Source: Treponema sp.
GTDB lineage: Bacteria > Spirochaetota > Spirochaetia > Treponematales > Treponemataceae
Reading direction: 5' to 3'
Assembly: GCA_024687165.1 (NCBI GenBank)
Contig: JAILEY010000085.1
Location: forward strand, 1 to 39,986
Length of the DNA: 39,986 bases
A program made the translations under genes and the position numbers. Under the pieces are notes generated by a model. That model was not told where the DNA came from, did no database searches, and saw nothing but the letters and a program-made list of their open reading frames with translations. Of this stretch, positions 5,240 to 32,159 are shown in pieces (position 1 is the stretch's first letter; every line of letters starts with the position of its first letter).

Positions 5240-5390
5240 AAAATTGGCTTCCGGTCGTCTTGCGCGTAACAAAACTGATGCTGTCGCATCTACATGCTGT
5301 TTGTTGTAAAGAAACTATTTACTATGTCGCTTCGCGACACCAACAAACAGAATTTTTTCGTTCCGCTCAATACTCCCTCGCGCCAATTTT
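5240..5390. repeat. Structured intergenic repeat, copy 1
   Basis: 151-bp element bounded by AAAATTGGC (5240-5248) and GCCAATTTT (5382-5390). Inside, a left-arm stretch (GTCTTGCGCGTAAC, 5257-5270) is nearly complementary to a right-arm stretch around 5357-5374; GATGC..GCATC forms a small hairpin at 5277-5290; CTGTTTGTTG (5297-5306) pairs with CAACAAACAG (5341-5350); and a tip hairpin GTCGC-TTC-GCGAC lies at 5326-5338. It sits between converging genes (TPR and thrS). Two relatives occur at 22728 and 32006. No coding potential and no clear target-site duplication. Confidence 0.85.
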
Positions 5391-20930: not shown

Positions 20931-22664
20931 TTACTGTATAAATTCCAGTGCACTGTCCGCCGCAATCTTTCCATAAACGCAGATGTCTGCAACGGCATTT
21001 CCACCAAGTCTGTTTCCTCCATGGATACCGCCCGTTACTTCACCGGCAGCATAAAGTCCAGGAACAGGTCTTCCGTTTACATCAAGAACTTCTGCTTTTT
21101 TGTTGATTACAATTCCACCCATCGTGTGATGAATAGCAGGTGCAACTTCAACTGCAAAATACGGACCTTCACTCAAAGCCCTAGGCATTTCGCTTCCATT
21201 TCTTCCAAAATCACCATCATTTCCTGAAGCAACAAATCCATTATAACGCTTTATTGTCTCAGCAAGAGCCTCCGCAGGAATTCCAAGTTTTTTTGCAAGT
21301 TCTTCTGGAGTTTCTCCTTCTGTAAGAAGTCCCTGCTTTACGTAGCCTTCTATTGCCTTTAAAGATTTTCTAACGCTTGTATCAAAAACAAGATATGCAG
21401 TTCCACCAGTCTGTGAAAGAACAGCTGCACTCATCACATCGCGGGTTGCCATTTCACTTCCGAAACGCTTGCCTTCACGGTTAATCATAATTGCACCATT
21501 TCCGCGAACTGCCTCAGTAATCATCATGCCGTTTGAAGGGACAACAGTCGGATGTGTCTGAATCTGATCCATCTGTGTAAGACCGGCGTTGAATTTTTCA
21601 ATCCATGCAAAAGCATCTCCGGTTGCACCCTTATGATTTGTAGTTCCAAAGCCCTTAAGATCACTCTTGTATTTTACAACCATATCAGGATTTGCACCAA
21701 AACCACCTGTTGCAATAATTACAGCTTTTGCAGAAATCATATATTTCTTTCCATTTTTTTCTACGATTACACCAGCTGCTTTTCCATCTTTTTTTATAAT
21801 ATCAACAACCTTTGAATTTTTTCTAAGGTCAACTCCGGCATTCACTGCAGCTTTTTCAAGAACAGGAACCATATGTGCTCCAACTGCAGCACCTCCCTGT
21901 GGACGATGAGTGCGTGAATTTGTTGAACCTGCCATCTTACCAACATCAGACAAATCAACACCAACGGAAATAAGCCAGTCAACAGTTTCAGGAGCTTCTT
22001 CTACCATATTTCGCACAAGCTCCGGATTATTAAGATTGTAACCGCCCTTCATTGTGTCCTTGTAAAACTGATCCTTACTGTCTGCAATTCCAAGCTTTTT
22101 CTGAACTGAAGTTTCAGCCGCATTTAATCCGCCTGTTGCAGAAATAGTATTTCCACCGGCAGTTCCCTGTTTTTCAAGAAGAATTACTTTTGCTCCACCT
22201 TGAGACGCTTTTATAGAAGCAGAAAGCCCGGCACCTCCCGCACCGATAACAACAATGTCGCAGGAAGTATCTTTAACATCTTCCGCAAAATTATTTTTTC
22301 CTGATGCACAATCAAGAGCATTTCTCACAGCTTCAAAAGTTGCCTTTGAAGAAATTGTAGCGCCACTTACAGCATCAAAAGAATTCATCGAGCCTTTAGA
22401 AACAGCCTGATCAAGAACATTTCGAATTGCTGGTTTTGCAAAATCTGTTTCTTTTTCACTGATTATATCAGCAGCAACAATTTTCTGATCTTTAAGTGTG
22501 ATTGAAATTTGAATCGGTCCGTTTCTACCGTTACAGCTTCCGTTCCAGACACCGTCCGCATATGAAAGAGCTTTATCAGACTTTGAATTGATTACAAATA
22601 GAGCGATAAGAGACGCAACGGCAAAAGCAGAAAGCGCACAAATAAATCGATTTTTTCCTTTCAT
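20931..22664 (-). CDS. Exported flavinylated fumarate-reductase-type flavoprotein
   Basis: 577 residues. An N-terminal hydrophobic segment (about 6-25) directs export. Residues ~35-120 are an FMN-binding domain with SGAT at 100-103, where Thr normally receives FMN from the transferase ApbE. The FAD domain begins IVVIGAGGAG (~137-146) and ends GLYAAGEVTGG. Conserved active-site features of flavocytochrome c fumarate reductases are present: THPTV, ITEAVRGNG, HHTMGG and GGNRLGGNA. It should reduce fumarate or a similar enoate outside the cytoplasm; the exact acceptor is open. AGGAGG at 22670-22675 is an ideal ribosome binding site. No apbE or electron-donor gene is nearby. Confidence 0.9.
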   Translation of the reverse strand: MKGKNRFICALSAFAVASLIALFVINSKSDKALSYADGVWNGSCNGRNGPIQISITLKDQKIVAADIISEKETDFAKPAIRNVLDQAVSKGSMNSFDAVSGATISSKATFEAVRNALDCASGKNNFAEDVKDTSCDIVVIGAGGAGLSASIKASQGGAKVILLEKQGTAGGNTISATGGLNAAETSVQKKLGIADSKDQFYKDTMKGGYNLNNPELVRNMVEEAPETVDWLISVGVDLSDVGKMAGSTNSRTHRPQGGAAVGAHMVPVLEKAAVNAGVDLRKNSKVVDIIKKDGKAAGVIVEKNGKKYMISAKAVIIATGGFGANPDMVVKYKSDLKGFGTTNHKGATGDAFAWIEKFNAGLTQMDQIQTHPTVVPSNGMMITEAVRGNGAIMINREGKRFGSEMATRDVMSAAVLSQTGGTAYLVFDTSVRKSLKAIEGYVKQGLLTEGETPEELAKKLGIPAEALAETIKRYNGFVASGNDGDFGRNGSEMPRALSEGPYFAVEVAPAIHHTMGGIVINKKAEVLDVNGRPVPGLYAAGEVTGGIHGGNRLGGNAVADICVYGKIAADSALEFIQ

Positions 22665-22727
22665 TAAATCCTCCTAAATTTAATTTCATGAAATAGTTTT
22701 AATTTTGAGTTTCAATAAAATAGAATT

Positions 22728-22872
22728 AAAACTGGCTTCCGGTCGTCATGAGTAGAACGAAACCGCGCTATATTGCGCTACATACTGTTTGTTGCAAAGT
22801 AACTATTTATTCTGTTGCTTCGCAACAAACAGTATGTTTTCGCCCCACTCAATACTTCCTCGCGCCAATTTT
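22728..22872. repeat. Structured intergenic repeat, copy 2
   Basis: 145-bp relative of the element at 5240, bounded by AAAACTGGC (22728-22736) and GCCAATTTT (22864-22872). CATACTGTTTGTTGC (22781-22795) is perfectly complementary to GCAACAAACAGTATG (22822-22836); GTCATGAGTAGAACGAAA (22744-22761) pairs with the stretch at 22838-22856; a GCGC..GCGC mini-hairpin is at 22765-22778; the tip hairpin is GTTGC-TTC-GCAAC. It lies between the acyl-CoA synthetase terminator and the start of the flavoprotein gene, so here it is in an upstream region. The rest of 22665-22993 holds the ribosome binding site and the terminator. Confidence 0.85.
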
Positions 22873-22953
22873 ATCCGATTTAAAAAAATCATAATTAAGA
22901 TAAAATACATGGATTTATCATAATATCTTAATTATAAAATCAATTTAAAAAAT

Positions 22954-32005: not shown

Positions 32006-32159
32006 AAAATTGGCTTCCAGTCACGTTGAACAGTCCAAAAACGATGCTGTACAGCATCTATATACTGTTTGTTGCAAAGTAACTATTAATAATGTCGCTT
32101 TCGCGACTACAACAAACAGAATATTTTCGTCCTGCTCAACATTCCTTCGCGCCAATTTT
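32006..32159. repeat. Structured intergenic repeat, copy 3
   Basis: 154-bp relative of the elements at 5240 and 22728, bounded by AAAATTGGC (32006-32014) and GCCAATTTT (32151-32159). GTTGAACAGTCCAAAA (32025-32040) pairs with TTTTCGTCCTGCTCAAC (32124-32140); GATGCTG-TA-CAGCATC is a perfect hairpin (32043-32058); CTGTTTGTTG (32065-32074) pairs with CAACAAACAG (32110-32119); the tip hairpin is GTCGC-TTTC-GCGAC. It separates the converging HD-GYP and clpB genes. Confidence 0.85.

Follow-up and report, generated by a model that had tools for sequence, protein, structure and literature searches.

A hairpin core of ~150 nt that recurs three times in the window (the whole stretch of 39,986 nt analyzed, which is the entire contig C73 of a Treponema genome of 2.38 Mb, 97% complete) belongs to a genus-specific element of gut and rumen treponemes that is real and mobile and is under a pairing constraint. 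The reading that we favor, and consider probable if far from certain, is that of a non-autonomous mobile element whose fold is kept by selection as a two-sided structure, and which is perhaps retained by the host; our results suggest that the folded shape is itself useful to element or host. Searches of the literature, including that on Treponema repeats, yielded no description of the element, which is best filed with MITEs and intergenic palindromes and is unusual among them in that the interior, not the ends, is conserved. Below, G000 denotes the genome of the window and other G numbers the other genomes compared; the comparisons drew on sequence stretches around the copies.

Structurally, the core forms one long branched hairpin, running from the base stem P1 through a two-pair step, the variable stem P2, the side hairpin P3 and stem P4 to the tip hairpin P5, and the position of P3 makes the unit asymmetric. 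The three copies, with the shared ends, conserved core and nested stems given in the preliminary description, lie where they had been placed and align end to end (Table 1). As single-stranded DNA, copies 1, 2 and 3 each fold better than every one of 200 dinucleotide shuffles (z of −4.8, −7.3 and −5.7, respectively). The long arms had been said to match their own right arms: they do pair, but imperfectly, at about 9 of 11 positions in copy 1. Similarly, the boundaries proposed for the element mark its conserved core, and the complete unit in G000 has outer inverted repeats ~30 bp further out. Copies 1 and 3 bear out the placement of two copies between converging genes, with copy 2 in a tandem gap; the genes around the three copies are ordinary (TPR protein, thrS, flavoprotein, AMP-binding enzyme, HD-domain protein and clpB), and the window holds no transposase, as had been noted. 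The terminal repeats, target duplications and orthologous copies described below lay beyond the view of that first reading.

Table 1 Features of the three element copies in the window.
Feature	Position	Strand	Description
Copy 1, hairpin core	5240..5390	+	151 nt; TPR-protein gene end (5222) on one side, threonyl-tRNA synthetase gene end (5556) on the other
Copy 1, left arm of base stem P1	5240..5248	+	partner arm 5382-5390
Copy 1, left arm of variable stem P2	5253..5270	+	partner arm 5360-5377; sequence locus-specific in congeners
Copy 1, side hairpin P3	5277..5290	+	GATGC/GCATC; left side only
Copy 1, left arm of stem P4, CTGTTTGTTG	5297..5306	+	partner arm 5341-5350
Copy 1, unpaired stretch with conserved motif AAAGNAACTATT	5307..5325	+	
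Copy 1, tip hairpin P5	5326..5338	+	GTCGC/GCGAC
Copy 2, core	22728..22872	+	145 nt; tandem gap upstream of flavoprotein gene 20931-22664(-)
Copy 2, left outer terminal repeat, decayed	22696..22727	+	GTTTTAATTTTGAGTTTC...
Copy 2, right outer terminal repeat, decayed	22873..22901	+	...AAAAATCATAATTAAGAT
Copy 2, 6-bp target duplication, left member	22690..22695	.	GAAATA; 5/6 match
Copy 2, 6-bp target duplication, right member	22902..22907	.	AAAATA
Copy 3, core	32006..32159	+	154 nt; HD-domain gene end (31998) on one side, clpB-like gene end (32192) on the other

Beyond the window, a BLAST search with copy 1 scored 40 places in G000 at 79–100% identity, and a search with a covariance model, a tool that the preliminary description had proposed, here built from 24 copies, recovered ~58 near-full-length copies in G000, along with copies in congeners; the number in G000 is far beyond chance. 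Several internally deleted G000 copies (45–89 nt) were also found, as were still shorter forms made of the outer arms and a few core bases, whose junctions at short direct repeats such as CGCG fit the expectation for hairpin deletion. Across the genus, the element was present in 36 of 69 genomes tested (32/59, then 4/10 further ones), at 1 to >110 copies per carrier genome (>110, partly identical, in G010), and it was not found in 114 other genera of the phylum. Named matches in a separate collection were to Treponema species, including T. bryantii, and to uncultured Spirochaetaceae or Spirochaetales, mostly from ruminant sources. A second dispersed repeat, GGCGGGAAGAAAAGCAGAACGGCTGTG(A/G)AGCGCTTGCAAGG, adjoins several G000 copies (L010, L023 and L027), and L089 and L094 have other repeats nested inside.

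The preliminary claim that the stems covary between copies is strongly supported, both against a phylogenetic null and by pair counts. In a sequence-only alignment of 157 copies drawn from many species, tested against an R-scape-like null of columns simulated along the inferred tree, 27 column pairs covaried at E < 0.05, all 27 falling in one nested fold and none conflicting with it; G000 copies taken alone gave the same picture. In 43 sequences across the genus, 93% of cells were paired (many copies were gathered with a structure-aware model, favoring well-paired ones), compensated changes occurred in 42 of 48 pairs, and 427 cells had changed on both sides versus 118 in shuffles; the covariation score of 0.55 fell to at most 0.11 when partners were slid. 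The unpaired motifs CTCCC(A/G)GTC, AAAACCG (before P3), AAAGNAACTATT and CTCC(T/C)TCGCG are also kept genus-wide.

When copies were compared pairwise, one-side changes in stem pairs stayed at 0.05–0.07 per pair throughout, whereas both-side changes were zero in the closest bin (four comparisons only) and then 0.02, 0.06, 0.11, 0.18, and 0.28 at unpaired divergences of 0.06, 0.10, 0.15, 0.18, and 0.23, rising roughly as the square of divergence. This growth is two-step compensation, which alone does not separate selection from mutation plus template-switch copying. Under the latter mechanism, which has been proposed for hairpin stems (PMC8794818), template switching between arms in replication copies one arm onto the other, such that a decaying MITE would look covarying through mutation rather than selection. 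It predicts exactly the strand-symmetric, wobble-free stems that we see, and the deletions of small hairpins, bounded by short direct repeats, are a sign that replication does run into trouble at these palindromes. However, arm copying would erase both the one-sided P3 hairpin and the unpaired motifs, which are conserved genus-wide, and the survival of these asymmetric parts argues for a contribution from selection as well; the flat single changes and rising double changes speak against double changes arising in one step, though not against mutation followed by copying. On balance we regard template switching as a rather unlikely source of the pattern. Given the conserved middle, the genus-wide compensated fold and the persistence at orthologous loci, whether hairpin covariation comes from selection or from template-switch mutation can now be asked on real sequences.

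A transcribed RNA tolerates G-U pairs on its own strand and does not tolerate A-C. Counted by helix, with P3 of G000 left out because its two hairpin lengths misalign, G-T and A-C numbered 14 versus 21 in G000 and 37 versus 45 elsewhere (51 versus 66 in total, p 0.20), a result that the structure-aware model cannot create since it penalizes A-C more than G-T. An apparent G-T excess in G000, obtained from the sequence-only alignment, was rejected as an artifact of misaligned P3 hairpins of differing length. The stems are almost strictly Watson-Crick, with G-T and A-C equally rare and G-T at 0.9% of standard pairs, compared with 13 of 217 pairs in tRNAs encoded at those loci of the genomes concerned. 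As G-T is no commoner than A-C, the pairing constraint would be strand-symmetric, as expected of folded DNA, of transcripts from both strands, or of one arm being repaired from the other, and the element seems not to be a structured RNA of the usual sort. A riboregulator or ribozyme transcribed from one strand would be in keeping with the deep covariation, the conserved unpaired motifs and the start codon that adjoins some copies, but we find it improbable because G-T does not exceed A-C on either strand, the element occurs in both orientations beside genes, and Rfam returned no match at gathering or permissive thresholds. The structured RNA family considered initially is thus not supported in the ordinary sense, and strong covariation need not imply a structured RNA; here the wobble test points elsewhere.

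Whole units in G000 end in the terminal inverted repeat GYCCTAAMTTCGAG... and carry a duplication whose length is exactly 6 bp: the match was exact in 6 of 21 cases and flank identity reached 0.667 versus 0.489 in shuffled flanks (sd 0.036), whereas lengths of 5 and 7 bp gave no signal. Units in G010 measure 212–213 bp, also bear terminal inverted repeats, with ends CAGGGCAAACGCATTATAA, and are flanked by a duplication of exactly 10 bp (5 of 16 exact; 0.556 versus 0.303, sd 0.043); both lengths were assessed by permutation. Terminal inverted repeats are not evident in most copies of G004, G024 and G052, and the core-only copies of these genomes gave no target-duplication signal. Unrelated ends and two duplication lengths on one core point to at least two transposases having carried it, and terminal inverted repeats with fixed-length duplications indicate a DDE-type transposase as the enzyme that inserted the units. 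Together with empty orthologous sites, the fixed-length duplications uphold the earlier suggestion of a mobile MITE-like unit; the element is non-coding and reaches high copy number. Two single G010 copies (L128 and L156) have mixed ends, TTCC type on the left and AAAC type on the right, so the two end variants may recombine or be equally usable. In the G034 copies L145, L151, L154 and L157, the outermost arms differ between copies yet still pair with each other on either side of a common (A)TTATAA-like motif, an arrangement also seen in G010, G042 and G056.

Searches for DDE_Tnp_1 (PF01609) found none in G000, G010 or G004, and no ISAs1-type transposase gene was found in G000 or G010; as the searches detected no transposase of the expected kind in these two genomes, we infer the mobilizing enzymes. 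ISAs1-family elements normally make duplications of 8–10 bp, and the remnants of ISAs1-type transposases in G006 and G047 are accompanied by ends like CAGGGTCTCCGCATTTAAA, which resemble the unit ends of G010 and G047; unlike that family, the Treponema element is non-coding, and the G000 ends and duplication differ. No insertion sequence with G000-type ends was found, the similar-ended remnants of G006 and G047 concerning the G010 type. Alternatively, an HUH (Y1/RAYT) transposase could recognize the element as folded single-stranded DNA, as in REPINs, which are likewise mobile hairpins with compensatory changes on both stem sides (PMC3116915). We consider this very improbable: no more than 12 of 59 genomes gave a Y1_Tnp match, and none of these was the copy-rich G004, G024, G034, G043, G050 or G052, a distribution that does not fit a Y1/RAYT mobilizer, and the fixed-length target duplications point to DDE enzymes. 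The Treponema element also differs from REPINs and REP-RAYT systems in being longer and branched, in having target duplications and in that most carriers are without RAYT, and the REP-like unit proposed earlier is therefore not supported in the RAYT sense, most rich carriers having no Y1 transposase. Similarly, attC sites of integrons conserve fold more than sequence, as this element does, yet its copies are dispersed, in mixed orientation, between ordinary genes and form no array, such that we find an integron-type site scarcely credible; a likeness of GTTGAGC/GCTCAAC to attC core sites was rejected as the order is reversed in these dispersed, variously oriented copies.

Evolutionarily, copies persist at orthologous loci after insertion and are still paired despite stem replacement. 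Many copies occupy orthologous intergenic sites in G004, G024 and G052; most have no recognizable outer repeats, and orthologous cores are 80–99% identical and a P2 sequence particular to each locus. The clearest case is L117 (G004) against L212 (G052), where the flanks align and P2 is almost wholly different, each P2 being paired throughout in the predicted fold. Other loci record gain or loss of the element: the unit is absent from G024 at the L218 site of G004, and the element present in G004 at the L222 site has as its counterpart in G024 a plain bidirectional terminator (AAACGACAGTC...GACTGTCGTTTTT).

The placement of copies hints at a two-sided role at 3′ ends, although the numbers are small. 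With genes taken as simple ORF picks and few control gaps, 41 of 107 gaps with the element were convergent versus 18 of 108 gaps without it at the same loci (p 0.0004), and other terminator-like hairpins occurred in 2 of 30 length-matched convergent gaps with the element versus 4 of 9 without (p 0.018). In most species, as in bidirectional intrinsic terminators, an A-run, stem and T-run are present on both strands; unlike such terminators, the element is much longer and mobile, has conserved unpaired motifs, and has lost the terminal T-run in G010. At a groEL-like locus (the L216 site), it stands in front of a separate, additional terminator, and this together with the T-run loss in G010 means that termination cannot be the whole story. 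The case for the bidirectional terminator raised in the preliminary description is suggestive only, and we hypothesize such a role; if the two-sided terminator reading is true, the genus has spread a mobile 3′-end structure over its chromosome. In tandem gaps (G000 and G004/G024/G052), the side bearing the P3 hairpin may be oriented preferentially in one direction: of 39 cases, 26 had both neighbor genes on the minus strand of the element (26 versus 13, p 0.053), with orthologous copies counted twice.

Returning to the selected, non-autonomous mobile element that we favor, its fold and mobility are established by the data: whole units have the terminal inverted repeats and fixed-length duplications left by a DDE-type transposase, one core is carried by two unrelated end and duplication types (6 bp in G000, 10 bp in G010), and inserted copies stay at orthologous loci in congeners, where their stems change yet remain paired. 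Since the stems retain Watson-Crick pairs but not wobble, selection would maintain the fold as a two-sided structure, either as folded DNA or as transcripts of both strands. With less confidence, the host may retain many copies because the hairpin ends or protects the transcripts that reach it from the genes on both sides, with the conserved unpaired motifs as putative contacts for a protein. It is also quite possible, although we hold this tentatively, that selection acts on the core as a two-sided hairpin module (DNA, or both transcripts) which depends on no single transposase. Such a module would have traveled with two or more unrelated sets of transposon ends and then been retained by host genomes at fixed intergenic sites, each locus evolving its own stem under the pairing constraint.

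Among known systems, bacterial MITEs such as QMITE of Coxiella (reviewed in PMC10969869) are similarly short, non-coding and intergenic, with terminal inverted repeats, target duplications, high copy number and deleted derivatives. MITEs normally conserve their terminal repeats and vary inside, and the usual view of those in bacteria is of a neutral middle flanked by decaying ends, whereas in Treponema conservation lies in the middle, with a fold kept genus-wide while ends and duplication lengths differ by species. Compared by properties, the ERIC elements of enterobacteria are also imperfect palindromes (~130 bp), intergenic, in transcribed regions and at orthologous places (see also PMC10969869), and the Treponema element differs from them in its branched fold, tree-tested covariation and clear target duplications.

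Within single chromosomes, the copies of G043 were unevenly spread. Its contig C1 (loci L170-L175) is a complete chromosome of 2,738,066 bp starting with dnaA-dnaN-recF, on which 20 of 28 copies lie ≤55 kb from dnaA (binomial p ~3e-22) and all 28 within 455 kb. The copies listed for the two-contig genome G213 were without clustering of this kind.
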